Shown here: positions 3,903 through 63,760 of the stretch, piece by piece
How the letters are laid out: each line of letters opens with the position of its first letter
How positions within the stretch are numbered: position 1 is the first letter of the stretch
Assembly (NCBI RefSeq): GCF_900188275.1
Contig: NZ_FZNY01000005.1
Span: forward strand, 186,001-250,000
Reading direction: 5' to 3'
DNA: 64,000 nucleotides
Source: Dokdonia pacifica
Lineage (GTDB): Bacteria > Bacteroidota > Bacteroidia > Flavobacteriales > Flavobacteriaceae
Made by a program: the position numbers and the translations under genes
The notes under the pieces: model-generated
What the model saw: the letters and a program-made list of their open reading frames with translations, nothing else
Databases searched by the model: none
Told to the model about the DNA's origin: nothing

Positions 3903-3922
3903 TACGCTTTCGCGAAAGCGTA
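3903..3922. repeat. Solo palindrome TACGCTTTCGCGAAAGCGTA
   Basis: A perfect 20-bp palindrome in the spacer between the divergent amidohydrolase and AsmA genes. It is one of about 15 copies of the TTTCGCGAAA core in the window (see findings). It could be a protein-binding site or a remnant of the 70-bp element seen at 41413 and 44631. Confidence 0.9.
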
Positions 3923-4073
3923 TACAAGAATCACACAGGTAGAAAATAAGATTCCTTAAAACAACACAATGCTGTTAATCAAAAACTAAATCGCATTTCT
4001 ACACAAGATTTATTCCTATGAATTCGTTACTTTTAAAGTCGAACACTTTTTCTAACTATAAAGACCACTCCTT

Positions 4074-7000
4074 TTGAAGATTAAAAAATTCTGGAAACGA
4101 ATTTTAATAGCGCTCATCGTAGTTCCTATAGTGATACTAGGAGCGCTCATACTCTATATTCAGAGTAACCAATCTGAAATTATTAAGAGTGAGATTGCCA
4201 AACTCAATAAAGAGCACAAAGGCCAAATTAATGTAGGGGAAAGTGAATTATCCCTTTTTGGCAACTTTCCGCATATTTCTATAAAAGTGTATGATGTGCA
4301 GGTTCTTGAAACAAAAGAAGAAAATGCGCCTATCATTATGGACGTAAAAGACATCTATATAGGGTTTAATCTATGGGATATTGTCAATGGAAACTATGAC
4401 ATCCAATCGTTATTACTAGAAGAAGGTGTTTTCAATATTGTCATTCACGAAAACAATACCACCAACATTCAAAACTCCTTAGCAAGTACTTCTGACACAG
4501 AAACACCCACGACTAATATCCATCTTAAAAAGATCAAGTTTAAAAATCTAGATATTCATACCTTAGATGAAGCCACCAATACCGATGTCGAAAAGTTTGT
4601 ATATGCGGGCACCGGTGGGTTTAGCCGAAAAGATAGTATCATCGCTGGGCATATAGACACCTATTTTGAATTAAATGTGATAAAAGATAGTGATACCACC
4701 TTTTTTCGTAAAAAGCATTTTGAGATTAATACAAACCTCACATTTAATGAGCATACGGGTATTCTGAACATACAACCTTCAGGGATTTCGATGGAAAATG
4801 GCGATTTTGAATTAGAAGGATCGATAGATACCAAAAATGATGTAGACTTGGATCTGTCTATAAAAGGCACCAAGAATAATTTTGATATGTTTATCGCCTT
4901 TGCACCTACTGATATCATTCCTGTATTAGAAAAATATAATAATGCGGGTAAAATCTATTTTAATGCAACGATCAAAGGTGCTGCTAATAAAGGAAATCGA
5001 CCGCTTATCAATGCCGATTTTGGCGCTGGAAAAGCCTTCCTCGAAAACACCAAACGCAAGAAAAAGATAGATGAAGTAGGTTTTAAAGGTCATTTTACCA
5101 ATGGAGCCAATAGAGATGCCAGTACGATGGAGTTTTCACTTACGGATATGAAAGCCTCTTTGGAAAAAGGGGAATTTCAAGGCTCCGTATTTGTCAAGAA
5201 CTTTGAATCTCCCGAAGTCGAAATGCAAATCGATTCCAATTTCAATCTCGATTTTATCGCAGACTTCTTCGAGCTAGAACAAGTACAAGACGCCTCTGGG
5301 CAGGTTTCTCTGAAAATGAATTTTCATGATATTATTGATGTAGACCATCCTGAAAAAGCATTACAAAAACTCAATCAAGCCTACTTTTCAGAACTGATTG
5401 TAAAAGACTTGAGTCTAGACGCCAAAGAACTTCCCGTTCCCTTAGATAGCCTGAATGTACATCTTGTCATGAATGGCAAAAAAGCAACCCTCAAACAATT
5501 TGAACTATTGATGGGCAATTCAGATCTATCCATTAGTGGTTTTCTTTCAGATTTACCTTCTATTGTACATCATACAGACATTCCGGTAGATGCCCATTTA
5601 GATATTACTTCCAAGTATTTAGATATTGCCGAACTCACAGGATTTACAAAACAAGACACCATCCAAATAGGTGTTGATGAACAAATAAAAGATCTGACTT
5701 TAGGGCTTTCTTTTAAAGCTTCCGCGAAAGATTTTACAGAATCTAACTATTTACCAAGAGGCGAATTCTTTATCGATAGCCTGTATGCCGACTTAAAGCA
5801 TTATCCGCATACATTACATGATTTTAATGCCGATATGTTTATAGATGATGAAGATGTAGAAATCATAGACTTTACAGGCTATATAGATGATAGCGACTTT
5901 CATATAGATGGGCTCGTACATGATTATTCGTTTTGGATGCAACCCGAACTTCAAGGAGATGTGTATTTAGATATCAACCTATCTTCAGAAAAATTAAGAC
6001 TCGAAGATGTCTTCTCTTACAAAGGAGAAAATTATGTTCCGGAAGACTATAGACATGAAGAATTTGATAATCTGGCATTGCATTTCGCGTCAAGCATGCA
6101 TTATAAAGATTCTGTATTACATTCCATCGATCTCGCTTTAGACAAGCTAGATACAAAAATGAAAGTGCATCCGTTACCCTTTGAAAATTTTAGAGGGAAC
6201 ATTCATTATGAAGACGATCACATTGTTATCAAAGACTTTCATGGCGAGATAGGTACGACCAATTTCAATTTCGATCTCAATTATTATTTGGGAGAAGATC
6301 CACAAATAAAGAAAAGAGATAATTACCTCGAATTAAACGCAAATTATATTGACTTTGATGAGCTGTTTAATTTTGAAGAAAATACAACAACACCAACAGA
6401 AGTAGCCGTTTCAAAAACAGCAGATGTAAAAGCACATGCAGAAGCCTTCAATCTCTATGAGTTGCCATTTACAGACATGCAATTCAAAGCAAATATTGGG
6501 CATTTTATATATCATAAAATCGATCTTCAACAGATCAAAGCAGATATACGCACCACACCCAATCATTACATCTATATAGATACTCTCAATATGGATGCCG
6601 CAGGAGGAAACATCCGATTGAGCGGTTATTTTAATGGAAGCGATCCTAAGCATATCTATATGCAGCCTGATTTGGTGATGACCAATGTAGATTTGGATAA
6701 ACTGCTCTTCAAATTTGAAAACTTTGGACAAGACCATCTCGTATCCGAAAACTTACAAGGCAAGCTCACCTCTAGAATCAAAGGGAAAGTACGAGTATAC
6801 CCAGATATGACCCCAGATTTGGATCAGTCTACCCTAGAAATGGACGTAAAAGTATTAAACGGCCGATTAAAAAATTACGATCCTATGTTGGCACTTTCCG
6901 ATTATATGGGCGATAAAAACCTCCAAAACATTCGATTTGATACGCTACAAAACAGCTTAGACATACAGAAAGGAAAAATCCATATTCCAATGATGACCAT

Positions 7001-7271
7001 CGAATCTACCATAGGTCATATGGAATTATCCGGTACCCATGACAGCGATCAAAATATCGATTACTACCTACGTATTCCTTGGAAAGCCGCTAGAAAAGCT
7101 GCTTGGCAAAAGCTATTTAAAGGCAAGAGAGACACCCTTGTAAACCCAGAACAAGAAGATGCCATTGTAGCCATAGACACCACCAAAAGAATCAGATACC
7201 TCAACCTAAAGATCAAAGGAAATGTAGATGACTACAAAATCTCTTTAGGTAAGAAAAAAGAAAAGGAGTAA
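4074..7271 (+). CDS. AsmA-family inner-membrane-anchored protein
   Basis: A 1065-residue protein with one N-terminal membrane anchor (about residues 8-30, ILIALIVVPIVILGALILYI) followed by a very long beta-rich periplasmic region. It has the repeated, low-complexity character of AsmA/DUF748-type bridge-like proteins, for example LNIQPSGISMENGDFELEGS and repeated ISGFL/LSGYF strands. AsmA relatives are linked to lipid transport and outer-membrane assembly; its role here is inferred. The only sensible start is TTG at 4074 because no ATG lies near and the basic-TM start fits the family. A weak -7-like TACTTTTA is at 4028-4035. It is followed 38 bp later by a small membrane protein gene. Confidence 0.82.
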   Translation: MKIKKFWKRILIALIVVPIVILGALILYIQSNQSEIIKSEIAKLNKEHKGQINVGESELSLFGNFPHISIKVYDVQVLETKEENAPIIMDVKDIYIGFNLWDIVNGNYDIQSLLLEEGVFNIVIHENNTTNIQNSLASTSDTETPTTNIHLKKIKFKNLDIHTLDEATNTDVEKFVYAGTGGFSRKDSIIAGHIDTYFELNVIKDSDTTFFRKKHFEINTNLTFNEHTGILNIQPSGISMENGDFELEGSIDTKNDVDLDLSIKGTKNNFDMFIAFAPTDIIPVLEKYNNAGKIYFNATIKGAANKGNRPLINADFGAGKAFLENTKRKKKIDEVGFKGHFTNGANRDASTMEFSLTDMKASLEKGEFQGSVFVKNFESPEVEMQIDSNFNLDFIADFFELEQVQDASGQVSLKMNFHDIIDVDHPEKALQKLNQAYFSELIVKDLSLDAKELPVPLDSLNVHLVMNGKKATLKQFELLMGNSDLSISGFLSDLPSIVHHTDIPVDAHLDITSKYLDIAELTGFTKQDTIQIGVDEQIKDLTLGLSFKASAKDFTESNYLPRGEFFIDSLYADLKHYPHTLHDFNADMFIDDEDVEIIDFTGYIDDSDFHIDGLVHDYSFWMQPELQGDVYLDINLSSEKLRLEDVFSYKGENYVPEDYRHEEFDNLALHFASSMHYKDSVLHSIDLALDKLDTKMKVHPLPFENFRGNIHYEDDHIVIKDFHGEIGTTNFNFDLNYYLGEDPQIKKRDNYLELNANYIDFDELFNFEENTTTPTEVAVSKTADVKAHAEAFNLYELPFTDMQFKANIGHFIYHKIDLQQIKADIRTTPNHYIYIDTLNMDAAGGNIRLSGYFNGSDPKHIYMQPDLVMTNVDLDKLLFKFENFGQDHLVSENLQGKLTSRIKGKVRVYPDMTPDLDQSTLEMDVKVLNGRLKNYDPMLALSDYMGDKNLQNIRFDTLQNSLDIQKGKIHIPMMTIESTIGHMELSGTHDSDQNIDYYLRIPWKAARKAAWQKLFKGKRDTLVNPEQEDAIVAIDTTKRIRYLNLKIKGNVDDYKISLGKKKEKE

Positions 7272-7309
7272 ATACAGCAAAATGATGTCATAAAACTAAT
7301 GCGAAAAGA

Positions 7310-8074: not shown

Positions 8075-8114
8075 TCAAAAAATTCGCTTTCGCGAAAAAG
8101 TATAATGAAGCAGA

Positions 8115-14944: not shown

Positions 14945-16390
14945 ATGCGTATTCCATATATTCTTACGGCCCTATTCGTACTATTAAACAGTTATGTGAG
15001 TCAATCGCAAGAAGATCAAAAGCAATTAGAAGAGAGAATTGCTCGAATCGAAAATGGTCTTCAATCCAATTTACAAATACAGTATGGCGATAGTATAAGC
15101 ATACAGTATTATACTATTGAAGATCGAATGAAGGAGTTAAACATTCCTGGATTGAGCATTGCCGTAATGAATAATGGCGTTATCGAATGGGCAAAAGGAT
15201 ATGGAATCGCAGATAGTACAGAAAATCGTAAAGTAACCACAGAAACTCTATTCCAAGCCGGCTCTATCAGTAAACCTGTAGCCGCCACAAGAATACATCA
15301 ATTGGTAGAAAAAGGAGTCATCAATTTAGATACCGATGTAAATAAATATCTAAGCAGTTGGAAAGTACCCGATAATGAGTTTACAAAAACAAAAAAAGTA
15401 ACCCCACGCGGACTCCTAACGCATGCTGCAGGACTCACCGTACATGGATTCCCCGGCTATACTAGAAGTGATGCCATCCCAAGTGTCGTTGATATTTTAG
15501 ATGGTAAAGGAAATACAGGTCCTGTAGAAGTATTTAGAGTGCCTGGCGAAGGCTGGAAATACTCTGGAGGTGGTTATACCATTATGCAATTGATGATTAC
15601 GGATATTGAGCAAACAGAATTTTCAGACATTATGCAAGAACAGGTGCTAGACCCATTAGGAATGACCAATAGCACGTATAGCAACCCATTACCCAAACAA
15701 TATCATGCCCTAGCTGCCACAGGACACTATGCAGATGGAACATCTGTTGAAGGCAAGTGGCATGTATATCCGGAAATGGCTGCGGCAGGTCTTTGGACCA
15801 CACCATCTCAATTGGTTTTATGGACCAAAGAAATACAAGAAACCTTACAAACACAAAAAGATGGATTCCTAAAAGCACAAACAATTAACGATATGCTCAC
15901 AGAATACCGAGGAAATCAAGGACTAGGACCCTATGTTCTTGAACATACCTTCGGTCATGGTGGCGCAGATGAAGGGTTTCGCGCAGATCTAAGAGCTTGG
16001 AAAGAACAACCTATTTCTGTAGCAATGATGTCTAATTCTGATAATGGAAGTGCCATCATGCAAGAGATCTTTTTAAGTATCGCAAAAGAATATAACCTAC
16101 CCGATGTATACCCTAGAAAGAGAGTATTTAATAAGCAATCACAGAAAGAATTAGAACGATTCATAGGAAATTATAACTTCCCCAATAATGGAGATGCTAT
16201 CATTAAGATAAAAGATAATGGCTTAGAGTTTAATGGAGACATATTCCAAGGACCGGGGGTTTTCTTATTACCTGAAACAGATAGCTTATTCTTTAATCAA
16301 GAAACTGGCACCTATTATGAATTTGAATTTGAAAATGACACCGTCATAAGCGTACAATTTTCACGTTATAAAGCGAAAAAAATTAAGTAA
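14945..16390 (+). CDS. Exported serine hydrolase of the beta-lactamase/PBP fold
   Basis: A 481-residue exported protein with a signal peptide ending near SQSQ. The class C beta-lactamase/DD-peptidase signatures are QAGSISKPVA with the catalytic Ser107-x-x-Lys110, a Tyr-containing KYSGGGY motif, and a C-terminal HGGADEGF block taking the place of the KTG motif. A C-terminal tail of about 100 residues forms a lipocalin-like beta domain. It is most like esterase or D-aminopeptidase members rather than resistance enzymes. It is a paralogue of the 52008-53096 gene: both have TAGL/AAGL-x-VHG-(F/Y)-PGY. The 77-bp gap after the DUF4097 gene suggests it may be separately transcribed. Confidence 0.85.
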   Translation: MRIPYILTALFVLLNSYVSQSQEDQKQLEERIARIENGLQSNLQIQYGDSISIQYYTIEDRMKELNIPGLSIAVMNNGVIEWAKGYGIADSTENRKVTTETLFQAGSISKPVAATRIHQLVEKGVINLDTDVNKYLSSWKVPDNEFTKTKKVTPRGLLTHAAGLTVHGFPGYTRSDAIPSVVDILDGKGNTGPVEVFRVPGEGWKYSGGGYTIMQLMITDIEQTEFSDIMQEQVLDPLGMTNSTYSNPLPKQYHALAATGHYADGTSVEGKWHVYPEMAAAGLWTTPSQLVLWTKEIQETLQTQKDGFLKAQTINDMLTEYRGNQGLGPYVLEHTFGHGGADEGFRADLRAWKEQPISVAMMSNSDNGSAIMQEIFLSIAKEYNLPDVYPRKRVFNKQSQKELERFIGNYNFPNNGDAIIKIKDNGLEFNGDIFQGPGVFLLPETDSLFFNQETGTYYEFEFENDTVISVQFSRYKAKKIK

Positions 16391-16415: not shown

Positions 16416-16453
16416 TATACGCTCCTGCCTGCCGGTGAGGCAGGTTCGCGAAA
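16416..16453. repeat. TTTCGCGAAA-type repeat split by a GC-rich palindrome
   Basis: TATACGCT (16416-16423) and TTCGCGAAA (16445-16453) would join exactly into the common element TATACGCTTTCGCGAAA. They are separated by the 21-bp near-palindrome CCTGCCTGCCGG-TGA-GGCAGG (16424-16444). The same GC-rich unit interrupts another element at 50624-50643. This is a nested insertion. Confidence 0.8.
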
Positions 16454-16460: not shown

Positions 16461-16486
16461 GTATACGCTTTCGCGAAAGCGTATAC
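16461..16486. repeat. 26-bp perfect palindrome centred on TTTCGCGAAA
   Basis: The longest perfect copy in the window: GTATACGC, then TTTCGCGAAA, then GCGTATAC. It lies 7 bp after the interrupted copy, in the spacer between the serine hydrolase and the beta-propeller gene. Confidence 0.95.
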
Positions 16487-21143: not shown

Positions 21144-22211
21144 ATGAAATTACTAGAAAGAATTAACGCTTTTGTTCAACTTGGAGACTTTTTATCTCAA
21201 TTTTCTAGAGCAGAAATATCCCAAAAAGAAGGAGTTGCTTACAACGATCTTTTCTTTGATGGCTTTCAACATCAAATCAAATTGGCTAGCGAACATAATG
21301 GTTGGTTTACTAAGGAAAATATCTTGTATGCCATAGAAGGATGGGCGTCATCGCTTACAGAAAAGCATCTTTCAGAATGGTTGACTCCATATGAGTCCGC
21401 TTTCGCGAAAGCGTATACCTCCAAAACCATTGCCGTGATCATGGCAGGAAATATTCCGCTGGTGGGTTTTCATGATTTCTTATCGGTACTCATAACGGCA
21501 CATCAAGTTATCGTTAAACAATCGAGTAATGATAAGCACCTTCTCCCCTTTCTTGCGAAGTATTTGGAATATATACATCCAGATTTAAAAGGAAAAATCA
21601 CCTTTACAGAAGATAAATTACCTCCTCATGATGCAGTGATTGCGACTGGAAGTGATAATACGGCGCGTTACTTTGAGTACTATTTTGGTAAGAAACCTAA
21701 TATTATTCGTAAAAACCGAAACTCTGTTGCGGTACTTACTGGAAATGAAACTCCTGAGCAATTAGAAGCGCTGGCTGAAGATATATTTCGTTATTACGGA
21801 TTAGGGTGTCGTAATGTGTCAAAACTATATGTTCCTAAAGATTATAATTTTGATGGTTTCTTTAATGCTATTTATGCCTGGAAAGATATTATCAATCAAG
21901 CAAAGTATGCTAATAATTATGACTACAATAAAGCGGTATACTTAATGAGTCTTTTTGATTTATTAGAAAACGGATTTTTAATGCTTAAGGAAGATGCAAG
22001 TTTTGGATCTCCTATTGCGACTTTATTTTATGAGCGTTACGAATCTTTAGAAATTTTATATAAGACACTAGAGGATCACAAAGACAATATACAGTGTATT
22101 GTAGGTGAAACGCTAGATATAGAAACCATTGCGTTTGGGCAGACACAAAATCCCCAATTGCATGACTATGCTGATGGTGTAGACACCATTGCATTTTTGT
22201 TAAAAAAATAG
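21144..22211 (+). CDS. LuxC-family acyl-CoA reductase
   Basis: A 355-residue member of the LuxC/acyl-CoA reductase family, an aldehyde-dehydrogenase-related fold that reduces acyl-CoA to aldehyde with NAD(P)H. Family blocks visible are IMAGNIPLVGFHDFL (residues about 100-115), VIVKQSSND, DAVIATGSDNTARYFEYYFG, and RYYGLGCRNVSKLYVP with the conserved Cys (about residue 230). A copy of the TTTCGCGAAA palindrome (21401-21410) is embedded in frame as SAFAKAY. The arrangement ferredoxin / acyl-CoA reductase / serC / serA recurs in Flavobacteriia, as I remember it. Its physiological substrate is unknown. Confidence 0.88.
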   Translation: MKLLERINAFVQLGDFLSQFSRAEISQKEGVAYNDLFFDGFQHQIKLASEHNGWFTKENILYAIEGWASSLTEKHLSEWLTPYESAFAKAYTSKTIAVIMAGNIPLVGFHDFLSVLITAHQVIVKQSSNDKHLLPFLAKYLEYIHPDLKGKITFTEDKLPPHDAVIATGSDNTARYFEYYFGKKPNIIRKNRNSVAVLTGNETPEQLEALAEDIFRYYGLGCRNVSKLYVPKDYNFDGFFNAIYAWKDIINQAKYANNYDYNKAVYLMSLFDLLENGFLMLKEDASFGSPIATLFYERYESLEILYKTLEDHKDNIQCIVGETLDIETIAFGQTQNPQLHDYADGVDTIAFLLKK

Positions 22212-22290
22212 TGTATAAATTATCATATTATCAATGCCATTGTAGGTCATTTTAGGCATCTTTGCATTGTATTTAAAAATCAAATACTCA

Positions 22291-23355
22291 ATGAAAAAGC
22301 ATAATTTTAGCGCAGGACCTTGTATTTTACCACAAGAGGTTTTTCAAGAAGCTTCTCAAGCTATTTTAGATTTTAATAACTCTGGATTATCCATTTTAGA
22401 GATTTCACACCGTAGCAAAGATTTTGTTGATGTGATGGATGAAGCTCGTAATCTTGCATTAGAGTTACTAGGTTTAGAAGGATTAGGATATAAAGCATTA
22501 TTCTTACAAGGAGGTGCAAGTACGCAGTTTTTAATGACTGCATATAACTTATTACAGACAAAAGCTGGATACCTTAATACAGGTACTTGGAGTGATAAAT
22601 CCATTAAAGAAGCAAAGCTTTTTGGAGATATTATCGAGGTGGCTTCGAGTAAAGATGCAAACTATAAATACATTCCTAAAGGATTTGTATTACCAGAAGG
22701 ATTGGATTATTTACATCTTACAAGTAACAATACCATTTTTGGAACACAGATCAAAAATTTCCCTGAAGTAGATTGCCCATTGATTTGTGATATGAGTAGT
22801 GATATTTTTTCGCGAAAGCTAGATTTTTCAAAATTTGATTTGATTTATGCCGGAGCTCAGAAAAACATGGGACCTGCTGGTACTACTTTGGTCGTAATAC
22901 GAGAAGATATATTAGGAAAAGTAACACGTGCTATTCCAAGTATGTTAGACTATAAAACACACATTAGTAAAGGAAGTATGTTCAATACACCTTCTGTATA
23001 TGCAGTGTATGTATCTATGCTTACTATGAGATGGCTTAAAGCGAAAGGTGGTATAGATGCTATAGAAGAGATAAATGATCGCAAAGCAGGATTACTATAT
23101 TCTGAAATAGAATTAAATCCATTATTCACTGGATTTGCTGCCAAAGAAGATCGTTCTTCTATGAATGCAACTTTCTCACTTACAGATGGTGATTTGAAGG
23201 AAACTTTTGATGCGATGTGGAAAGAAGCAGGTATCAATGGCTTAAATGGACACAGAAGTGTAGGTGGATATAGAGCTTCTATGTACAATGCAATGTCACT
23301 AGAAAGTGTTGGAACATTGGTAGATGTAATGAGTGAACTAGAGCGTAAAGCGTAA
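22291..23355 (+). CDS. serC: Phosphoserine aminotransferase
   Basis: A 354-residue class V PLP aminotransferase that converts 3-phosphohydroxypyruvate to phosphoserine. It starts MKKHNFSAGPCILP, the diagnostic SerC N-terminus; the ATG at 22291 is chosen over an in-frame upstream ATG at 22267. The PLP lysine is Lys191 in AGAQKNMGPAG, and the C-terminal RSVGGYRASMYNA binds phosphate. A TTTCGCGAAA copy (22808-22817) encodes FSRK within it. It is followed by serA, giving consecutive steps of serine synthesis in one operon. Confidence 0.95.
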   Translation: MKKHNFSAGPCILPQEVFQEASQAILDFNNSGLSILEISHRSKDFVDVMDEARNLALELLGLEGLGYKALFLQGGASTQFLMTAYNLLQTKAGYLNTGTWSDKSIKEAKLFGDIIEVASSKDANYKYIPKGFVLPEGLDYLHLTSNNTIFGTQIKNFPEVDCPLICDMSSDIFSRKLDFSKFDLIYAGAQKNMGPAGTTLVVIREDILGKVTRAIPSMLDYKTHISKGSMFNTPSVYAVYVSMLTMRWLKAKGGIDAIEEINDRKAGLLYSEIELNPLFTGFAAKEDRSSMNATFSLTDGDLKETFDAMWKEAGINGLNGHRSVGGYRASMYNAMSLESVGTLVDVMSELERKA

Positions 23356-33470: not shown

Positions 33471-35870
33471 ATGAAATTTTTCATTGTACTCTGTGCAGTT
33501 ATGTACAGTAGTATGAGTATAGCACAAGACTGTACTTATACCCTTACCGGTTATGTTATTGATTTACACGACCAAGAAACACTAGCTGATGCAACACTCA
33601 GCATAGAAGAGCTAGGTAATACCATAAAAACAACTACTAAAGGAAAATACACATTTAGTAATTTATGTAATGGTGCTACCTATACGATACGTGTATCTCA
33701 CCCTTTATGTAATACACAAACTATTAATGTAACCATTAATGGAAATACAGAGCGTACCATAAATATGGAACACCACTTAGAAGAATTAGGGGAAATTTCA
33801 ATCACTGGAGAAGCTCAAAAAAATGGTGGAAAAACAGCTATCGAATCTCAAGTATCTAATGAAGCCATTCAAGTAAATAGTGCAGGTTCATTAGGGGATG
33901 CTTTAAACCAGTTAAGTGGTGTTTCTTCTTTAAATACAGGAAATACTGTTGTAAAACCTGTGATCCAAGGATTACATAGTAGCCGTGTCGTATTAATTAC
34001 AGAAGGCACAAGACTACAAGATCAAGAATGGGGTGTAGAACACGCACCAAATGTAGATTTAAATAATGCAGGAAGTATCTCTGTAATTAAAGGAGCCGCT
34101 GGATTACAATATGGAGGTGACGCGGTGGGGGGCACCATTATTGTGAATCCAAAACGCATTCCTATTTCGGATAGTCTGTATGGAGAAACGCTTCTTACAG
34201 GAGTCACTAATGGACGTGGTGGTAGTGCCACAACTACGCTTACAAAATCTTACAATTCTGGATGGTATGCTAGTTTTCAAGGAACTTTAAAACGTTTTGG
34301 AGACTTTGAAGCACCAGATTATATTTTAAGTAATACAGGAGCCGATGAGCGTGATGCCGCAGTACGCATTGGAGTTAATAAATATTCATATGGAGTAGAA
34401 GCTAGTTATTCTATTTATAGTAATAAGTTAGGAATATTACGTTCTTCACATGTAGGAAGTGCTGCCGATCTTGCCAATGCGATCAATAGTGACAGACCTT
34501 TATTTATAGAAGACTTTACCTACGATATCAACCCTCCAAGACAAGAAGTAAAGCATCAAGTAGCAAGACTTAATGCTTATAAACGTTTTGATAATATTGG
34601 AAAGTTTAGTTTTCAATATGATTACCAACAAAACAATCGTTTGGAATTTGATATCAGACGCGATAGTGAAGATGTTCGCCCAGCTATAGATTTACAGTTA
34701 CGCACGCACAGTACAACATTAGATTTTGAATATACAGCAGATAATACCGTAGAAGCCAAAGCTGGAGTATTAGCACGTACACAAACCAATTTCCCAGATC
34801 CACTCACAGGCGTACGAAGGTTAATCCCAGATTATGATCGCTTTGATTTTGGAATATACGCGCTAGCTGCAAAAACACTAGATGCATGGACAATTGAAGG
34901 AGGTATTCGCTATGATTATAACTTTATAGATGCACAAAAATTCTATCGTACGTCCTTTTGGGAAGCGAGAGGTTATGATGTGTTATTTCCAGAATTGGTT
35001 ATAGAAGAAGTTGGGAATCAAATTTTAACCAATCCTGAATTTACCTTTCATAACGTATCGGCTACAGCGGGAGTTGGATATGAGTTTAATGATATCTATA
35101 ATATCACAGCAAACTATTCACTAGCCAATAGAGCTCCTAACCCATCGGAATTATTTAGTGATGGGTTACATCAAAGCGCTGCTCGTATTGAGCTGGGTGA
35201 TATTCGTTTTGATCAAGAAACCTCAAATAAAATTTCTGTTGCGCTTTCGCGAAAGCATAAAAATTGGTCATTTACGGTAGCTCCATTTGCCAACTTCATT
35301 TCAGACTTTATCTTGATAGAGCCTACTGGAAGTCAGCAATCCTTACGTGGTAATTTCCAAGTTTGGGAATACCGTCAGACCGATGCACGATTACTCGGGG
35401 TAGATATTGATAATGAATTTCGCGTAAGCGAGCATTTTAGTATAAATAATCAACTCTCTGTCGTAAAAGGACAGGATACTACCTTGGATGTACCATTGAT
35501 TAATATCCCGCCTGTAAATACTACAAATCGCGTCACATATACCAATGAAAAATGGCACAATTTAAAAGTATGGGTAGAGAGCCAGTATGTCTTTAGACAA
35601 AATGAATTTCCTGATAATAATTTTGAAATTTTTATTGTCGAAACCGATAGCAATGTATTAGTAGATGTAAGCACACCTCCAGATGCCTATCACTTAATCA
35701 ATTTAAGAGGGCAGCTTGATTTTGCAGTAAGTAACAAATCTACCTTACAAGTAGCATTAGCGGTCAATAATCTTTTTGATACTTCCTACCGAAACTATTT
35801 AAACAGACAACGCTTTTTTGCTGATGACCTTGGCAGAAATCTAAGTTTACAACTTAAAATAAACTATTAA
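33471..35870 (+). CDS. TonB-dependent outer-membrane receptor
   Basis: A 799-residue receptor with a signal peptide to Gln19, a carboxypeptidase-regulatory-like beta domain (about 20-105), a plug domain (about 125-225, with ALNQLSGVSSL, VIQGLHSSRVVLITEGTRLQDQEWGVEHAP and GAAGLQYGGDAVGGTI) and a 22-strand barrel ending NLSLQLKINY. The WG-x-EHAP plug motif plus the His/Cys-rich protein upstream point to a metal ion (zinc or copper) rather than SusC-type glycans, and there is no SusD. A TTTCGCGAAA copy (35245-35254) encodes LSRKH. A lipoprotein gene follows after 40 bp. Confidence 0.88.
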   Translation: MKFFIVLCAVMYSSMSIAQDCTYTLTGYVIDLHDQETLADATLSIEELGNTIKTTTKGKYTFSNLCNGATYTIRVSHPLCNTQTINVTINGNTERTINMEHHLEELGEISITGEAQKNGGKTAIESQVSNEAIQVNSAGSLGDALNQLSGVSSLNTGNTVVKPVIQGLHSSRVVLITEGTRLQDQEWGVEHAPNVDLNNAGSISVIKGAAGLQYGGDAVGGTIIVNPKRIPISDSLYGETLLTGVTNGRGGSATTTLTKSYNSGWYASFQGTLKRFGDFEAPDYILSNTGADERDAAVRIGVNKYSYGVEASYSIYSNKLGILRSSHVGSAADLANAINSDRPLFIEDFTYDINPPRQEVKHQVARLNAYKRFDNIGKFSFQYDYQQNNRLEFDIRRDSEDVRPAIDLQLRTHSTTLDFEYTADNTVEAKAGVLARTQTNFPDPLTGVRRLIPDYDRFDFGIYALAAKTLDAWTIEGGIRYDYNFIDAQKFYRTSFWEARGYDVLFPELVIEEVGNQILTNPEFTFHNVSATAGVGYEFNDIYNITANYSLANRAPNPSELFSDGLHQSAARIELGDIRFDQETSNKISVALSRKHKNWSFTVAPFANFISDFILIEPTGSQQSLRGNFQVWEYRQTDARLLGVDIDNEFRVSEHFSINNQLSVVKGQDTTLDVPLINIPPVNTTNRVTYTNEKWHNLKVWVESQYVFRQNEFPDNNFEIFIVETDSNVLVDVSTPPDAYHLINLRGQLDFAVSNKSTLQVALAVNNLFDTSYRNYLNRQRFFADDLGRNLSLQLKINY

Positions 35871-36683: not shown

Positions 36684-36825
36684 CATTCAAAATAGCACAC
36701 TATGCTATTTTTAGCTGAAATCAATTATACGCTTTCGCGAAATTTTATATCGAATTTACACTTCGGTTGAGTTGTAAAAATGACAAGTTAAGAATAATTT
36801 ACTTGTTATTAATACTTCTTAATAC

Positions 36826-37980: not shown

Positions 37981-39522
37981 CTACCCTTCTTCTTGTGGTG
38001 GTTGTTCTGGCTTAGCAAATAGATCCATATAAGCTCTTCCTAAAAACTCAGTAACATCACTAGCTATGAGTCCTTCAATACCATATTGGTTAATTGCAAT
38101 ATCGGCGGCTCTACCATGAAAATATACCCCCATCAATGCTGCTTCCATAGGGTGATATCCTTGCGCTAATAGTCCTGTAATTACCCCCGTTAATACATCA
38201 CCACTTCCTGCTGTTGCCAGTCCTGGGTTTCCAGAATCATTGATGTATAGCTTCATATCATAGGTAGTAATAGTATGTGCGCCTTTCATGACAATAGCAA
38301 TGTCATGCTTTTTAGCAAACTTAGCTGTCTTCTCTAATCTATCAAAATCATCTTCCCATTTCCCAATCAGGCGTTCTAATTCGCCAAAATGAGGTGTAAA
38401 AATAGACAGTGCTGGTACATCAGCTAGTAATTCAGGAATTGCCGCAATGATATTAATCGCATCGGCATCAATCACCAGTGGGTTTTTCTGTGTTTTCAAG
38501 AAATCCCCCATAGCTTTTGCCGTCTTAGAATCGGTACCCATTCCTGGTCCTATCCCAATAGCATTTGCCTTTGTTTGGAAATCTATCTCTTCAAATACTT
38601 TTCCATTAAAGTTATCGGTTTCTGTCATTACTTCTGGCAATGCCGTTTGTAAGATAGGCACCCCTATTTGTGGTATATAGGCAGTTACCATACCACTACC
38701 AGCACGCATTGCTGCTTTACTAGCAAGAATAATAGCACCCATTTTCCCATAACTTCCTCCTATAAGTAAACTATGTCCAAACATCCCTTTATGCGCAAAT
38801 TGAGGACGACTACGATACATCTGAATCACCTCTTGCTTTCCAATCAATTCTACATCGGTAGCAGTAGTGGCTAGGTATTCAGGATCCAATCCAATATCTA
38901 GAATATCCCATGCCTGCATGATAGGAGCCGTATCTGGTAAAAAGAACGGTAATTTTGGCGCTTGAAAACTTAACGTAAAACGAGGCAGGATAATAACGTC
39001 CCCTTCTTGAGGCGCCATATCCATATACATTCCAGAAGGAATATCAATACTCAACACATAGGCATTAGAGTTATTAATGGCTGTAAAAAGTGCCTTCACC
39101 CAATCCTGAACTACTCTATTAAGACCAATGCCAAAAATAGCATCTACTACAATATCCTGTGGACTAATGGCTGGTAATTCATCTCCTTCATTAATCACGA
39201 TAGGCCAATTTTTGGTTGCCGATTTTAATCGATCGTACGCGCCCAGAAAATCAGGAACTCTTTTGTTATTATAGTTGACCACATAGGTAGTCACATTGTA
39301 ATTGTTTTCTATAAGGTAACGTGCCAGTACCATCCCATCGCCTCCATTATTTCCAATCCCACAGAATACTTTAATAGGTACTTGCCCCCCTTTAAGGCGT
39401 TCGTTCACCCATTCATAGATATATCCTCCTGCACGTTCCATCAAATTAATAGACGGAATTCCTTCCTTTTCTACCGTTACTTTATCGGCTTCGTATATCT
39501 GTGCTCTGCTATATATTTTCAT
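37981..39522 (-). CDS. nnr: Bifunctional NAD(P)HX epimerase / ADP-dependent dehydratase
   Basis: A 513-residue metabolite-repair enzyme. The N-terminal YjeF_N domain (about 1-215) starts MKIYSRAQIYEADKVTVEKEG and contains CGIGNNGGDGMVLARYL; it epimerises damaged hydrated NAD(P)H. The C-terminal ribokinase-like domain (about 225-500) has HKGMFGHSLLIGGSYGKMGA, GIGPGMG and the anion-hole motif GSGDVLTGVI; it dehydrates NAD(P)HX. I start it at the ATG 39522. An open frame extends upstream to 39747 but runs through a TTTCGCGAAA repeat and lacks homology. Confidence 0.93.
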   Translation of the reverse strand: MKIYSRAQIYEADKVTVEKEGIPSINLMERAGGYIYEWVNERLKGGQVPIKVFCGIGNNGGDGMVLARYLIENNYNVTTYVVNYNNKRVPDFLGAYDRLKSATKNWPIVINEGDELPAISPQDIVVDAIFGIGLNRVVQDWVKALFTAINNSNAYVLSIDIPSGMYMDMAPQEGDVIILPRFTLSFQAPKLPFFLPDTAPIMQAWDILDIGLDPEYLATTATDVELIGKQEVIQMYRSRPQFAHKGMFGHSLLIGGSYGKMGAIILASKAAMRAGSGMVTAYIPQIGVPILQTALPEVMTETDNFNGKVFEEIDFQTKANAIGIGPGMGTDSKTAKAMGDFLKTQKNPLVIDADAINIIAAIPELLADVPALSIFTPHFGELERLIGKWEDDFDRLEKTAKFAKKHDIAIVMKGAHTITTYDMKLYINDSGNPGLATAGSGDVLTGVITGLLAQGYHPMEAALMGVYFHGRAADIAINQYGIEGLIASDVTEFLGRAYMDLFAKPEQPPQEEG

Positions 39523-39614
39523 GGAAATGTTCTTTCTTTTATAGATTAAAAAATCGCTACGATCTCTTTGTTGTAAAAATACTACTTTTTTGGAGCTCTC
39601 TGGGGGTTGTTTTC

Positions 39615-39638
39615 TATACGCTTTCGCGAAAGCGTATA
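39615..39638. repeat. 24-bp solo palindrome centred on TTTCGCGAAA
   Basis: A perfect palindrome TATACGC-TTTCGCGAAA-GCGTATA in the spacer between the divergent nnr and PD40 lipoprotein genes. It is exactly the 20-bp left end of the 70-bp element joined to its last TATA. Confidence 0.95.
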
Positions 39639-39779
39639 CAGATAGACATAAAAATAACCATAACTCAATAACATACACATTAGAAATTCCTAACAAAATA
39701 TAGTATCTTTTTACCCAATCCATTTCAAATACAAAATCATTAAACACTATATCTCAAAACATAAAAAGAGAATTCCCTA

Positions 39780-41412: not shown

Positions 41413-41482
41413 TATACGCTTTCGCGAAAGCGAGTTTACGAGATTCACGACCAAAAGGGAGAGCGCAGCGGTAAAGCGTATA
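41413..41482 (+). repeat. 70-bp inverted-end element, copy A
   Basis: Begins TATACGCTTTCGCGAAAGCG, continues AGTTTACGAGATTCACGACC and AAAAGGGAGAGCGCAGCGGT, and ends AAAGCGTATA, with 10-bp terminal inverted repeats TATACGCTTT/AAAGCGTATA. It is identical over 70 bp to copy B (44631-44700), both in the same orientation on either side of the GH2 gene. Diverged copies are at 50592 and, inverted, at 57929. The rest of the 307-bp spacer is AT-rich, with no gene. Confidence 0.92.
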
Positions 41483-44630: not shown

Positions 44631-44700
44631 TATACGCTTTCGCGAAAGCGAGTTTACGAGATTCACGACCAAAAGGGAGAGCGCAGCGGTAAAGCGTATA
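44631..44700 (+). repeat. 70-bp inverted-end element, copy B
   Basis: A base-for-base identical copy of the element at 41413-41482, same orientation, with TATACGCTTT and AAAGCGTATA ends. It lies between the GH2 and amine oxidase genes. The flanks differ from those of copy A, so the homology ends at the element boundaries. Confidence 0.93.
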
Positions 44701-50591: not shown

Positions 50592-50692
50592 GGCTTTGCT
50601 TTCGCGAAATCGAATTTGAGAGACCTGCCTGCCGGCAGGCAGGTTCACAACCAAAAGGGAGAGCGTAGCGTTAAAGCTTAAAAAAGCGTATA
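50592..50692 (+). repeat. Diverged 70-bp element with inserted GC-rich palindrome (copy C)
   Basis: GCTTTGCTTTCGCGAAATCG and AATTTGAGAGA are followed by the perfect palindrome CCTGCCTGCCGGCAGGCAGG (50624-50643), then TTCACAACCAAAAGGGAGAG and CGTAGCGTTAAAGC, ending AGCGTATA. Without the 20-bp insert the order matches copy A. The right end overlaps the methyltransferase gene: its last codons (Tyr-Thr-Leu-Phe) are encoded by the repeat terminus. Confidence 0.85.
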
Positions 50693-52007: not shown

Positions 52008-53096
52008 TTAATGATTAGAACGCCATTGTGCCCAATCTTTCATACTTCCAAACAATACCTTCTTTCCTGCCGAACCATTGGTAAGTACAATTATTCCTGA
52101 CTTTGAATCAAAATCAAGCATAAATCCTGATTGCCAACCTTGATTAGAACCGCCATGTCCAGAAAGTGTAAAATCTCCAAAACGATTCATCACCATATAG
52201 CCCATTCCATAATTTCCTCGTGATAACTCTGTAGGAGCAATTAATAATGCAATACTCTTTTCTGATAAGACAGGGTTTGTTGATAATGACGCTTTCGCGA
52301 AAAGAATTAAATCCTCTATAGTTGTGTGTAGTCCTGCTGCTGCTTGCGCATTAAAGAGACGTAATGGGATTTCATTTCCCTCATCATCATAGCCTCTAGC
52401 CGATGTTTTCAAAATTTGTTGATCAATCGAAAAACTTGTATGCTTCATTTTTAAGGGTTTAAAAATAGTTTTCTCCATATAGCTCGCAAATGATTTGCCA
52501 CTCACCTCTTCTATTACCAATTGTAAAACTGTATAACCGCCTCCAGAATATTTCCAAGTAGTTTCAGGTTGCATAATTAATTTCACCTGTTCTTCTTCTC
52601 TTGTACTTCCATTTAAACAATCTACCAAAGAACTTAGCTTATCCTTACTTTCATATCCAGGATATCCATGTACAGATAAACCAGCCGTATGTTGTAATAC
52701 ATTTCTAATGGTTACTTTACGAGCATCATATTCACTAGATGGTAACTTCCATTTTGAAATATACGTTGAGACGGGAGTATCTAAATCTATTGTTCCATCT
52801 TCAACCAATTTCATAATCCCCCAAGCAGTAAACATTTTGGATATAGACCCTATATTAAACCCTGTCATTGTCGTAACCATTTCTTTATTGGAAACATCAG
52901 AATATCCGTACCCTTTCTTAAGAATAACTTCTCCATTTTTAATAATAGCAACAGCCAGCCCAGGCACATGGTTTGCTTCTAAAGCTTTTGGAGTATTTGT
53001 GTCAAAGGTTTTAAGAAGGTCGTCTTTTGAGGTATGTTGCGCACTTATAATAAAGGGCATCATAACTAATAAGAATAATGTAATACGTGTTTTCAT
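52008..53096 (-). CDS. Exported beta-lactamase-fold serine hydrolase
   Basis: A 362-residue exported protein (signal MKTRITLFLLVMMPFIISAQ). The start at 53096 is chosen over an upstream in-frame ATG because it begins the signal peptide. The catalytic pair is in NIGSISKMFT (Ser84-x-x-Lys87), with a KYSGGGY Tyr motif and GHGGSNQGWQSG in place of KTG. It is clearly paralogous to 14945-16390 (HTAGLSVHGYPGYESKD versus HAAGLTVHGFPGYTRSD). A TTTCGCGAAA copy (52293-52302) encodes LFAKAS. A -7 box TATGTTTG reads on the minus strand at 53128-53121. Confidence 0.88.
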   Translation of the reverse strand: MKTRITLFLLVMMPFIISAQHTSKDDLLKTFDTNTPKALEANHVPGLAVAIIKNGEVILKKGYGYSDVSNKEMVTTMTGFNIGSISKMFTAWGIMKLVEDGTIDLDTPVSTYISKWKLPSSEYDARKVTIRNVLQHTAGLSVHGYPGYESKDKLSSLVDCLNGSTREEEQVKLIMQPETTWKYSGGGYTVLQLVIEEVSGKSFASYMEKTIFKPLKMKHTSFSIDQQILKTSARGYDDEGNEIPLRLFNAQAAAGLHTTIEDLILFAKASLSTNPVLSEKSIALLIAPTELSRGNYGMGYMVMNRFGDFTLSGHGGSNQGWQSGFMLDFDSKSGIIVLTNGSAGKKVLFGSMKDWAQWRSNH

Positions 53097-53323
53097 TTTT
53101 GTTTTTTTATAAATTCTATACAAACATATCATCAGAAACCAACGCTCTTAAATATTTATGACAAACATCGTAAGCCATTTGACAAAAAATCAATTTCGCA
53201 ATGTATACGTCGTTTACCCAGTTTTTTAAACCGTTTACAATCACATATGGTGAGTTAATCAAATAAATACTCGATTCGTAAAATCATCAGATAGTTTTGA
53301 GGTCTAAACTTTAATATATTTGA

Positions 53324-57928: not shown

Positions 57929-57998
57929 TATACGCTTTAACGCTGCGCTCTCCCATTTGGTCGTGAATCTCTCAAGTTCGATTTCGCGAAAGCGTACT
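57929..57998 (-). repeat. Diverged 70-bp element, inverted copy D
   Basis: TATACGCTTTAACGCTGCGC at the left and TTCGATTTCGCGAAAGCGTA at the right match the reverse complement of copy A, with about 10 substitutions. It lies 8 bp after the GH26-like stop. Confidence 0.85.
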
Positions 57999-59996: not shown

Positions 59997-60117
59997 ACTT
60001 TATTTACACTAGTAATGTAGCAATATTTTAAAAAGTGTAATAAAACCTGCCTTCATTTACATATCTCACAAAATAAGAGGGTATTATTTTTAATTCCATA
60101 AAAATCAGTAGTTGCAC

Positions 60118-60147: not shown

Positions 60148-60162
60148 ACTATTGTAATGTAT

Positions 60163-60240: not shown

Positions 60241-60356
60241 TCATTACATATCATCCATTCCTATACCCGTTTATCGGTATCACAATCAAATAATACATCA
60301 TACACTAAACTATCAAGCATCATTGATATAAAAACACCCATCATTAGGGCGCTATC

Positions 60357-62795
60357 ATGAGAATACTCAAATTTGGAGGAACTTCCGTTGGAAGTCCTGA
60401 AAACATACAAAAAGTCATCGCCGTTGTTAATGCAAGAGCTCAAAAAGAAAATGTAGCTGTTGTGGTCTCAGCTGTTGGTGGTATTACCAATAAATTATTA
60501 CAAGCGGGTCATTTAGCTTCTAAAAATGACACGGCATATATCTCATTATTTGAAGAAATAAAAGAAACCCATCTCACGTATACAAAAGCACTTACGCAAA
60601 GCAAAGAGACATATACCCAAGTAGAAATACTCATGAACGACCTAGAAGCCTTATTACAGGGTATTTTCTTGATTCATGAGTTATCTCCAAAAACCATTGA
60701 TAAACTTACTTCTTTTGGAGAACGTACCTCTTCTGTCTTGATAACAGCGGCTTTTCAGGAACAAAACATTCCAGCTCAACATAAAGATACGCGTGATTTG
60801 ATTCTAACAGATACAAAGCATACCAAAGCCTCTGTATATTATGAACAAACACATACAACTATACAAGCATATTTTAAAGATGTACAAACAGCTATTACCG
60901 TATTACCTGGTTTTATTGCACGCTCTGAAACGGGAGAAACAAGCACTTTAGGTCGCGGCGGATCAGACTTTACAGCGGCTATTATTGCAGCCGCTCTAAA
61001 AGTAGATGCTCTCGAAATATGGACCGATGTAAGCGGTATGTATAGTGCCAATCCAAAACTCGTAAAGCAAGCACAACCTATTGCGCATATCTCTTATCAT
61101 GAAGCCATGGAGTTATCGCATTTTGGTGCCAAAGTTCTCTATCCTCCTACGATCGCACCTGTGATGCAGGAAAATATTCCTTTATATATTAAAAACACCT
61201 TTGATCCAGAAGCAATAGGAACTTGCATTTCTAATGAAGCCAATGGAAAAAACAATCCCATAAAAGGTATCAGTCACATTAGTGATATTGCCTTATTGAC
61301 GCTAGAAGGTGCAGGAATGATTGGTATTTCAGGAACGTCAAAACGACTTTTTGAAACCTTATCTGCGGTAGATGTCAATATTATTCTAATTACACAAGCC
61401 TCTAGTGAACATAGCATTTGTATTGGTGTCGCACAAGAAGATGCGCAACAGGCTAAAGAAGCCATAGAAACCACCTTTGCCTATGAGATAGCAATCCATA
61501 AAATAGATCCTGTCATTGTAGAACAAGACCTTTCCATTATTGCATTGGTAGGAGAACGTATGAAAAGCCATCAAGGTATTTCTGGTAAAATGTTTAGTAC
61601 ACTAGGTAAAAATAACGTCAATATTAGAGCTATTGCACAAGGAGCTAGTGAAAAAAATATCTCGGCAGTGATTGCTTCTAAAGATGTAAAGAAAGCACTT
61701 AATAGTTTACACGAACGTTTCTTTGAAGATCAACGCCAGCAACTCAACTTATTTATTATGGGCGTTGGAAATGTAGGCGGACGATTGATGGCACAAATTG
61801 AGCAACAGCAACAATACCTCTTAGAAAATCTCAAATTAAATCTCCGTGTGATCGGAATTTCGAATAGTAGAACCATGGTTTTCGAAGAAGAAGGAATAGA
61901 CCTTTCCAAATGGCAAGCACTACTTGCCGCAGGCGAAAAAGCAGATGGTATACGCTTTCGCGAAAGCGTACAAAGCCTCAACATACGCAACTCAGTATTT
62001 GTAGATGTTACCGCAAATGAGGAAGTAGCGATGAGTTATGCCCAGTATTTACGCCATAGTATTGCAGTCGTTGCGTGTAATAAAATTGCTTGTGCCAGTA
62101 CTATGGAAAATTATAGTGAGTTGAAACGTTTAAGTAAAAAATACAATGCCTCATTCATGTTTGAAACCAATGTAGGCGCTGGACTTCCTATTATAGATAC
62201 GCTCAAAAATCTCATCGCATCGGGTGATCGTATTACTAAGATTCAGGCAGTACTTTCTGGTAGTCTCAATTTTGTGTTTAATAATTTCACCTCAGGAAGT
62301 AGCTTTCATGATGTGGTACAACAAGCAAAAGCAGAAGGCTATACAGAACCCGATCCGCGTATAGATTTAAGTGGTGTAGATGTGGCTCGAAAAATACTCA
62401 TTCTTGCTAGAGAAGCGGGATTGCAACTAGAACTTGAAGACATTACTAACACTCCTTTCTTAACACAGAATAATTTAGAAAGCACTGATGTTTCTCATTT
62501 TTTTGAAACCTTAAAAGAAGATGCCTCTCATTTTGAAACCTTAGTGAGTGATGCTACTGCAAAAGGGCATCGTTTAAAATATGTAGCACAGTTAGAAGGT
62601 GATAAAGCAAGTGTAGGTTTACAATCGGTGTCAGAAGAAAGTCCGTTTTATCAATTAGAAGGTAAAGATAATATTGTACTTTTCTATACGGAACGATATC
62701 CAGATCAGCCATTAATTATCAAAGGTGCTGGTGCTGGTGGTGACGTAACCGCTAGTGGTTTATTTTCAGATATTATAAGACTAAGACAATATTAA
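60357..62795 (+). CDS. thrA: Bifunctional aspartokinase / homoserine dehydrogenase
   Basis: An 812-residue fusion: aspartokinase (about 1-290, KFGGTSVGSPENIQ, GFIARSETGETSTLGRGGSD by position), ACT domains (about 305-455, LTLEGAGMIGISGTSKRLF and IALVGERMKSHQGISGKMF), homoserine dehydrogenase (about 460-812, NAD site FIMGVGNVGGRLM, ACNKIACAS and KIQAVLSGSLNFVFN). It makes homoserine from aspartate and is expected to be Thr-inhibited through ACT. A TACGCTTTCGCGAAAGCGTA copy (61951-61970) encodes RFRESV in the middle of the dehydrogenase. thrB follows after 2 bp. Confidence 0.96.
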   Translation: MRILKFGGTSVGSPENIQKVIAVVNARAQKENVAVVVSAVGGITNKLLQAGHLASKNDTAYISLFEEIKETHLTYTKALTQSKETYTQVEILMNDLEALLQGIFLIHELSPKTIDKLTSFGERTSSVLITAAFQEQNIPAQHKDTRDLILTDTKHTKASVYYEQTHTTIQAYFKDVQTAITVLPGFIARSETGETSTLGRGGSDFTAAIIAAALKVDALEIWTDVSGMYSANPKLVKQAQPIAHISYHEAMELSHFGAKVLYPPTIAPVMQENIPLYIKNTFDPEAIGTCISNEANGKNNPIKGISHISDIALLTLEGAGMIGISGTSKRLFETLSAVDVNIILITQASSEHSICIGVAQEDAQQAKEAIETTFAYEIAIHKIDPVIVEQDLSIIALVGERMKSHQGISGKMFSTLGKNNVNIRAIAQGASEKNISAVIASKDVKKALNSLHERFFEDQRQQLNLFIMGVGNVGGRLMAQIEQQQQYLLENLKLNLRVIGISNSRTMVFEEEGIDLSKWQALLAAGEKADGIRFRESVQSLNIRNSVFVDVTANEEVAMSYAQYLRHSIAVVACNKIACASTMENYSELKRLSKKYNASFMFETNVGAGLPIIDTLKNLIASGDRITKIQAVLSGSLNFVFNNFTSGSSFHDVVQQAKAEGYTEPDPRIDLSGVDVARKILILAREAGLQLELEDITNTPFLTQNNLESTDVSHFFETLKEDASHFETLVSDATAKGHRLKYVAQLEGDKASVGLQSVSEESPFYQLEGKDNIVLFYTERYPDQPLIIKGAGAGGDVTASGLFSDIIRLRQY

Positions 62796-62797
62796 AC

Positions 62798-63760
62798 ATG
62801 GGAAGGAAAGAACAGGAAAAAGATCTCCGCCTTCGCGGAGATGAAATTAAGATATTTTGTCCCGCAACTGTTGCCAATGTAAACTGTGGATTTGATACGT
62901 TAGGTTTTGCACTAGAGGGTATTGGTGATAAGATGGTGTTTCGTAAAGTATCCACTCCAGGAGTTACTATTACTGTGATTACTGGAGAAGAATTACCTAT
63001 GGAAGCACATAACAATGTCGCTGGCGTTGCAGGCAATGCTATGCTTCAGGGGATTCAAGCAGATTTTGGTGTCGAAATAGAAATACATAAGAACATACGA
63101 TCAGGAAGCGGTATTGGTAGTAGTGCAGCTAGTGCTGCAGGAGCCGTTTTTGGAATTAACCAATTACTAGATCATCCAATATCCAATTTAGAACTGACTC
63201 GATACGCCATGAAAGGAGAAGCCTTAGCCAGTGGTAATGAACATGCTGATAATGTAGCCCCATGTATTTATGGAGGTACTACGCTCATTACAGGATATGA
63301 TCCTTTACGAGTGATCTCGCTCCCTCCTATGGAAACGGTATATGTCGGAATTTTACACCCACATATTAAAATTGCCACCAAAGATGCACGCGCTATTCTC
63401 CCAAAAGAGGTACCGCTAAAAGATGCAATTACACAAGCACAACGCCTTGCTGGTTTTGTTGCGAGTCTGTATGAATGGGACAAACAGTTATTTATAGAAA
63501 GTGTACAAGATGTATTAGTAGAACCTCATCGCAAGCAATTGATTCCACATTTTGATACGATAAAAACACTGTCCAAAGAACATGGATGTATGGCGTTTGG
63601 TATTTCTGGAAGTGGCCCTAGTCTTTTTGCGTTCGCTTTCGCGAAAGCGAATATAGAAAGCTATTTAATGGCAAGTAAAGCTTATTATAAACAACAACAT
63701 TTAAAAGTAGATACCTACTCCAGTCAAATAAGCGGTACTGGATGTCAGGTAATACAATAA
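62798..63760 (+). CDS. thrB: Homoserine kinase with repeat-encoded N-terminus
   Basis: A 320-residue GHMP kinase phosphorylating homoserine. After the first 14 residues the family begins at IKIFCPATVANVNCGFDTLG; the ATP loop is RSGSGIGSSAASAAG. The start ATG (62798) is 2 bp after thrA. Codons 10-15 (LRLRGD) lie over the hairpin ATCTCCGC-cttc-GCGGAGAT (62823-62842), so a REP-like element has added a short in-frame extension. A TTTCGCGAAA copy (63637-63646) encodes FAFAKAN near the C-terminus. thrC follows after 5 bp. Confidence 0.95.
   Translation: MGRKEQEKDLRLRGDEIKIFCPATVANVNCGFDTLGFALEGIGDKMVFRKVSTPGVTITVITGEELPMEAHNNVAGVAGNAMLQGIQADFGVEIEIHKNIRSGSGIGSSAASAAGAVFGINQLLDHPISNLELTRYAMKGEALASGNEHADNVAPCIYGGTTLITGYDPLRVISLPPMETVYVGILHPHIKIATKDARAILPKEVPLKDAITQAQRLAGFVASLYEWDKQLFIESVQDVLVEPHRKQLIPHFDTIKTLSKEHGCMAFGISGSGPSLFAFAFAKANIESYLMASKAYYKQQHLKVDTYSSQISGTGCQVIQ
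62823..62842. repeat. REP-like hairpin inside the thrB 5' end
   Basis: A perfect 8-bp stem (ATCTCCGC/GCGGAGAT) with a CTTC loop, in frame with thrB. It has the same layout as the serA upstream hairpin ATTCCCGT-cttc-ACGGGAAT. Confidence 0.85.

Follow-up and report, generated by a model that had tools for sequence, protein, structure and literature searches.

Sites iterated throughout a genome are few, and some of them, like HIP1, are still without an explanation. Chi, the motif of RecBCD and AddAB, occurs once per 3-5 kb, and the strand on its 5' side, on which a recombinase is loaded, is poor in C and rich in G and T. The DNA uptake sequences of Neisseria (DUS) and the Pasteurellaceae (USS) are evenly spread, change by substitution, fall into lineage dialects and are not enriched in phages. 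The highly iterated palindrome HIP1 (GCGATCGC) of cyanobacteria is short, lies far above expectation, is restricted to certain lineages and has palindromic extensions, and the by-product of a methyltransferase has been proposed as its origin, according to PMC4390886. Here we report on a palindrome observed in a stretch of 64,000 nucleotides from Dokdonia pacifica (Flavobacteriaceae; contig NZ_FZNY01000005.1, positions 186,001 to 250,000; hereafter the window). Its central 10-mer is TTTCGCGAAA; the palindrome forms the centre of a dyad site roughly 50-60 bp long, and this site is selected at the DNA level.

By description the Dokdonia site is a highly iterated palindrome like HIP1; in its flanks, its spacing, its several copies in phage contigs and the lack of a methyltransferase shared by its carriers (three families tested) it is unlike HIP1, and it also has a longer core, strand-specific flanks and few one-off relatives. 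It shares its density and its C-poor, G/T-rich 5' strand with Chi but is palindromic and long, has no origin-terminus orientation, and has only a putative reader. Even spread, change by substitution and lineage dialects are held in common with uptake sequences, which differ in that the Dokdonia site is palindromic with two-sided flanks and occurs in several copies in phage contigs. A repeated palindrome of Caldithrix abyssi is likewise spread genome-wide with sites between convergent genes; according to PMC5317091, it differs in having just 38 exact copies, few of them in real genes, with conservation confined to 18 nt. The tested features of KOPS-type sites and of terminators are not those of the Dokdonia site.

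A sequence-only reading of the window had proposed a chromosome-organising or replication-linked site, like HIP1 or KOPS, or else a mobile palindrome. The idea of a chromosome-wide functional site stands, since the palindrome is about 80 times as frequent as its reversed control, evenly spread in the Dokdonia stretches tested and conserved in place. The comparison with KOPS failed on the palindromic form and the equal origin and terminus arms, and that with HIP1 on the absence, among three families, of a methyltransferase common to all carriers tested, such an enzyme being what is known to accompany HIP sites. The motif is described in no title or abstract opening searched, subscription papers lying mostly outside that search. 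The case has unusually clear rules, namely a near all-or-none core, a strand-specific flank of some 20 nt, repulsive spacing, conservation able to write amino acids, and copies in phage contigs. The site is a sharp bait for the protein that reads it, available in a marine genus that can be cultivated, and it could reveal a new link among recombination, chromosome structure and phage biology.

Abundance and spacing in host and viral DNA

All 15 copies of the 10-mer counted by the sequence-only reading were found where it had placed them. The window has a GC content of 34.3%, close to the one-third it had estimated, and its expectation of less than one copy by chance also held: dinucleotide shuffles gave a mean of 0.03, and none of 100 reached 15. 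It had overstated the extension of most copies, as the full 20-mer TACGCTTTCGCGAAAGCGTA is present in just 4 of the 15, the 16-mer CGCTTTCGCGAAAGCG in 8 and the 14-mer GCTTTCGCGAAAGC in 9, with perfect palindromes ranging in length from 10 to 28. Across the D. pacifica genome (5,520,745 bases) the counts are far above expectation and not close to it: 1195 copies of TTTCGCGAAA against 15 of the reversed pattern, an excess of about 80-fold and a density of 0.22 per kb.

Each of the 17 other Dokdonia genomes searched holds 481-1107 copies, and 21 genomes of other genera or families hold 0-8. At loci related to thrA, where the confirmed named records are ten Dokdonia and eight Leeuwenhoekiella only, the word is present in all ten of the former (3-9 copies each) and in none of the latter. 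Among 349 genomes of the family, the 12-mer CTTTCGCGAAAG reaches 933 and 917 copies in two Dokdonia, 586 and 685 in two genomes of a genus labelled g26, and 445 in one of a genus labelled g206; the other 344 hold 0-21. In 395 genomes drawn from the phylum, the D. pacifica genome alone has more than 11. In an rpoB tree g206 groups with Dokdonia and Leeuwenhoekiella, the latter name being given to genus g160 by genome G176, whose thrA locus matches that of an L. polynyae record at 100% along 5.4 kb; g26 lies far off, and the well-supported branches require at least two changes of carrier state. The genera have dialects before the core, ACGC in Dokdonia and CCGC in g26. The word recurs in a distant genus, g26, without shared site positions in the few genes compared: in-gene positions coincide with Dokdonia in none of five aligned comparisons. 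For g206 they coincide in 2 of 10 (8 distinct sites).

Several observations concern other genomes of the survey. Region L206 (G192:C1:309501-328500) has four sites bearing the g26-type extension and belongs to a genus with only 0-4 copies; its proteins, judged by eye, resemble metal-efflux and metal-binding parts. Its 933-bp site spacing recurs in G110, G119, G133 and G246, which suggests that regions of this type were transferred from a g26-like donor. Samples of G200 and G230 contained no palindrome of comparable strength, and the top palindrome of the Leeuwenhoekiella sample, TACCGGTA (34 strand-counted copies, 3.1 expected), was rejected as an analogue because it has no such flank. A dense non-palindromic repeat family around GGTTACCGTAAAGG occurs in G230, of a further genus (L173-L178), and G222, a g206 genome, has an additional over-represented word family, ACTTTAACGG and GTTACCGTAG, besides the palindrome (L022-L041).

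The density is about one site per 3-5 kb of Dokdonia chromosome, that is, one per few kb of host DNA as for Chi. In 220-kb stretches the mean gap is 3.1 kb in genome G016 and 3.3 kb in G008, and the coefficients of variation of the gaps, 0.68 and 0.61, compare with 0.98 for random placing. Gaps shorter than 1 kb number 5 of 70 (19.2 expected) and 2 of 65 (17.0 expected); neighbouring sites repel each other. Each of twenty 20-kb samples round G006 has 4-10 sites (index of dispersion 0.39, P 0.009); the index in G222 is 0.79 (P 0.29), and the window (P 0.15) is too short to tell. In G006, a single genome whose origin and terminus were placed by GC skew, there is no polarity or regional bias of the KOPS, Noc or MatP kind. 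The close site pairs examined indicated no candidate gene.

Densities by location, computed with open reading frames (ORFs) from a simple caller and not with curated genes, are 0.21 per kb within Dokdonia ORFs and 2.4, 1.1 and 0.95 per kb between convergent, tandem and divergent genes, respectively, an intergenic density 4.6 to 11.5 times that within ORFs; 159 of 258 sites are located in ORFs. The corresponding values in g206 are 0.16 within ORFs and 0.16-0.30 between them (8 intergenic sites).

The palindrome is also present in viral DNA. Its exact 20-mer occurs in one contig among the 2.9 million of IMG/VR, and 17-mers of the dialects occur in 37 and 21 viral stretches. Among 30 viral records selected for carrying an extended form of the site, 15 hold 3-8 copies of the core (in 12-40 kb), seven hold two and eight hold one, in contrast to the lack of phage enrichment of uptake sequences; the reversed control appears once in each of two. 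The richest records have one site per 4-8 kb. Several multi-copy records share spacings and are relatives, so that the 15 are not independent cases. The records come without a completeness figure, and some may be integrated prophages. Their ORFs match terminase, portal, major head protein, tail sheath, baseplate hub, tape measure and phage transposase, and in record L325 two of three sites lie inside ORFs matching portal and terminase. Of 122 distinct sites in the viral loci examined, 58 are in contigs of at least 45% GC and lack the CGC extension; these have no flank bias (C 0.286, G 0.279) and look like background. A blastn search of phages and plasmids with a 30-nt query returned no match spanning 80% of the query. 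The viral loci L241, L245, L249, L259, L325, L334 and L345 and their relatives form groups of phage contigs in which site spacings recur, 4480 bp in five records.

Conservation and the extended site

Intact sites persist where the surrounding sequence does not. Of 140 sites counted in gene pairs with 66-72% nucleotide identity, 13 fall in gaps and 109 of the other 127 are intact, against 5% of control 10-mers; the intact fraction of ungapped sites is 72/110 at 72-78% identity (118 counted), 54/57 at 78-84% (60 counted) and 38/38 at 84-97%. These pairs are not independent, since loci are repeated, the thr operon above all, and both directions are counted. One-mismatch forms are scarce: the Dokdonia sample contains 602 strand-counted exact 14-mers (301 sites) and 35 one-off sites. 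At thrA, the codons CGC TTT CGC GAA (CAC first in one row) hold the word in all 17 Dokdonia rows, some of which repeat a genome, and the site stands at identical codons in G222 of g206. The word is missing, and the residues vary, in nine rows from 8 Leeuwenhoekiella species and in 16 from other genera. Since these residues are fixed in carriers and variable elsewhere, the DNA word writes the protein at thrA; the palindrome imposes residues absent from other genera, and protein conservation is not what explains the sites. The site at 22808 is absent from all four relatives compared (L004, L005, L006 and L014) through substitutions and with no gap, so sites can be gained or lost without insertion. 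Of 11 aligned Dokdonia loci, 8 retain the site at 63637.

Across 416 distinct Dokdonia and g26 sites the core reaches (T)(A)CGCTTTCGCGAAAGCG(T)(A), with g26 favouring C for that A. Beyond it, each arm has about 20 nt on its 5' side in which C is scarce and G and T are frequent; relative to baseline, positions -21 to -7 have C at 0.47, G at 1.31 and T at 1.21. This bias is seen in both arms within genes, between genes, and in 45 distinct phage sites, mostly from multi-copy contigs. Three control palindromes in Dokdonia have no such flank. When all 6-mer palindromes are ranked by flank skew, TCGCGA comes first in Dokdonia by a wide margin (0.36, 322 sites) and first in g26 (0.26, 60 sites) but has just 0.09 in g206 (150 sites), with unrelated words reaching 0.22 (GTATAC in G230, 38 sites), by chance or otherwise. 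Decay of C to T was rejected as the cause, because G is increased as well as T. The arms show no complementarity from -7 outwards, and the site is therefore not a long hairpin.

Within the flank, C is tolerated again at positions -10, -16 and -22. Its frequency there, compared with the rest, is 0.159 against 0.079 in Dokdonia genes, 0.121 against 0.079 between them, 0.138 against 0.065 in g26, 0.159 against 0.110 in phages and 0.236 against 0.182 in g206. Because the three positions were chosen on the pooled Dokdonia and g26 data, the phage (p 0.03) and g206 (p 0.013) sets are the fairer tests.

Candidate readers and rival explanations

Avoidance of C on one strand over some 16 positions appears easier to explain by a reader of single-stranded DNA than by duplex contacts or DNA shape, and the evidence as a whole points to a DNA-level site read by a putative factor, not to a hairpin, a terminator or an ordinary repeat. 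The best mechanism we can offer, unproven and put forward tentatively, is a two-way Chi-like site read from either side by a DNA-processing machine. Such a machine would reach the palindrome from a DNA end or a moving fork and there switch its activity. The strand 5' of the motif, little folded because it is C-poor and G/T-rich, would then be retained as single-stranded DNA and coated with protein in six-nucleotide steps, and the site would work from both directions because it is a palindrome flanked in this way on each strand. If one site per few kb sufficed, neighbours would be expected to repel and phages to gain by carrying sites. The polarity of the flank fits the 3'-ended strand that is retained after Chi.

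A strong PF12705 match of AddB size is present in all 15 genomes searched, and a second, AddA-type match in 12 of them, the names AddA and AddB following from PF12705 matches and ORF sizes. Transfer of AddAB between g26 and Dokdonia was considered, but the partial AddB tree lends it no support, and g26 is not represented in the AddA tree. In the sampled stretches, which are a small part of each genome, no protein emerged as a candidate for having been shared with g26 by transfer.

Several results weigh against a two-way Chi-like site. The AddB tree places g26 alone on a long branch, apart from Dokdonia, and the arms facing the origin and the terminus are equal (G006, 133 sites), whereas Chi sites are oriented; it is this missing link in the AddB tree and the lack of replication polarity that keep our estimate low. 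Known Chi words are also 5-8 nt long and non-palindromic. A period scan of the flank does not cleanly single out six nucleotides, its leaders being 6.5 and 12 in the pooled data and 5 and 4 in intergenic sites; in-gene sites give 3, the period expected from codons. The g206 sites have a weaker flank bias and no clear enrichment between genes, and the searches identified no reader.

The site may instead bind an abundant dimeric chromosome-organising protein, nucleoid-associated or loop-forming, with the dimer seated on the palindrome and about 20 bp of each flank covered by its arms or by adjacent subunits, a possibility that we rate as somewhat unlikely. A palindromic core with half-sites and no hairpin, the even spread in the 20 samples round G006 and the repulsion of neighbours are what such a protein would produce, and prophage DNA would need its sites too. 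A strand-specific exclusion of C would, however, be hard to obtain from DNA shape, and so many single-base contacts would be unusual. Noc- and MatP-type sites have regional gaps, unlike the pattern in G006, where the terminus side shows none (4-10 sites per 20-kb sample). Nor do the carriers tested have an extra ParB-type protein: there is one match in seven of eight Dokdonia genomes (two in G000) and one in each of three g26/g206 genomes, and seven non-carriers have one match in five cases and two in two. Even spacing and genus dialects, together with gain or loss by substitution at 22808, are also consistent with a DNA uptake sequence, in which competent cells would prefer site-bearing DNA, and drive and recombination would keep the site in shared genes. 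Some of the site-bearing genes were recognised by eye as housekeeping genes, and natural competence in the relative Riemerella, reported in PMC7965970 and PMC8459023, counts in the same direction. We nevertheless consider an uptake sequence unlikely, since well-formed sites occur in viral contigs, in two cases within ORFs matching portal and terminase, and uptake would give a virus little reason to keep them; the literature matches listed include no report of competence in Dokdonia.

The remaining explanations fare worse. An orphan methyltransferase acting with strand-directed repair could leave behind a highly iterated palindrome with palindromic extensions, such as PMC4390886 describes for HIP1. 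This origin is improbable here because no methyltransferase of families PF00145 (3 of 10 Dokdonia), PF01555 (none of 10 Dokdonia above the cut-off, weak partial matches in two) or PF02086 (7 of 10 Dokdonia, none of three g26/g206 genomes), the three families searched, is shared by every carrier tested. The conserved site is also far longer than a methylation word of 4-8 bp, and one-off sequences, rare in our data, are common in many cyanobacteria with HIP1 (PMC4390886). The mobile palindrome of the sequence-only reading, a REP or MITE type spread by a transposase, finds its evidence in a minority of copies. Four of the 15 in the window each stand at an end of a repeat, 70-100 bp long, that has an inner part GGGAGAGCGCAGCG and, at the opposite end, an inverted half-site, either AAAGCGTATA or degraded: those at 41420..41429 and 44638..44647 (70-bp repeats 41413-41482 and 44631-44700), at 50600..50609 (a longer version, about 50593-50692) and at 57982..57991 (a minus-strand copy, 57929-57996). 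The repeat is, however, found in just 2 of 41 other Dokdonia loci (L001 and L044, one copy each), presence at 22808 differs without gaps in four of four relatives, the thrA site is fixed codon by codon, and the flank is a base preference and not a copied sequence. Most copies do not look like REP or MITE elements, and we hold such mobility very improbable as the source of the site. A transcription terminator or RNA hairpin would account for the intergenic excess in Dokdonia (4.6 to 11.5 times) with its peak between convergent genes. It is scarcely credible given that ordinary terminators, each a hairpin with a T-run, adjoin many sites, that 159 of 258 sites lie inside ORFs, that the arms are unpaired from -7 outwards, and that the flank bias within genes is alike on both strands.

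Going further than a two-way Chi-like site, one may imagine the dyad of about 60 bp as a self-mark, its flanks read as single strands in six-nucleotide steps by a laterally moving machine that spares or licenses DNA marked every few kb. Hosts would keep about a thousand copies at a cost to their proteins, and phages would have adopted the mark to persist. We regard this picture as speculative and unlikely to hold as stated.

Copies in the window and their surroundings

By the simple ORF caller, 7 of the 15 copies in the window are inside ORFs and 8 outside, which bears out the earlier remark that copies lie both in and between genes. Two of those within ORFs belong to the thr operon region: 61956..61965 is in ORF 60357-62795 (thrA, with aspartokinase and homoserine dehydrogenase domains), and 63637..63646 is in ORF 62798-63760, which matches GHMP kinases and would be thrB by its position beside thrA. 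Others are 21401..21410 in ORF 21144-22211 (LuxC-type acyl-CoA reductase match), 22808..22817 in ORF 22267-23355 (class-V aminotransferase match), 35245..35254 in ORF 33471-35870 (TonB-dependent receptor match) and 52293..52302 in the minus-strand ORF 52008-53132. The copy at 39622..39631, a perfect palindrome of 24 bp, was counted near the 5' end of the minus-strand ORF 37981-39747; it probably precedes the true gene start, because in Dokdonia alignments the homologous part of this ORF stops near 39522.

Outside ORFs, and apart from the copies at repeat ends, 3908..3917 is a perfect palindrome of 20 bp between divergent ORFs, 16469..16478 is an intergenic one of 28 bp located 3' of ORF 14945-16390, and 8088..8097 and 36733..36742 are intergenic. 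A second GC-rich palindrome, of the CCTGCCTGCCGGCAGG type, adjoins two of the sites, at 16424-16444 and 50624-50643 of the window.

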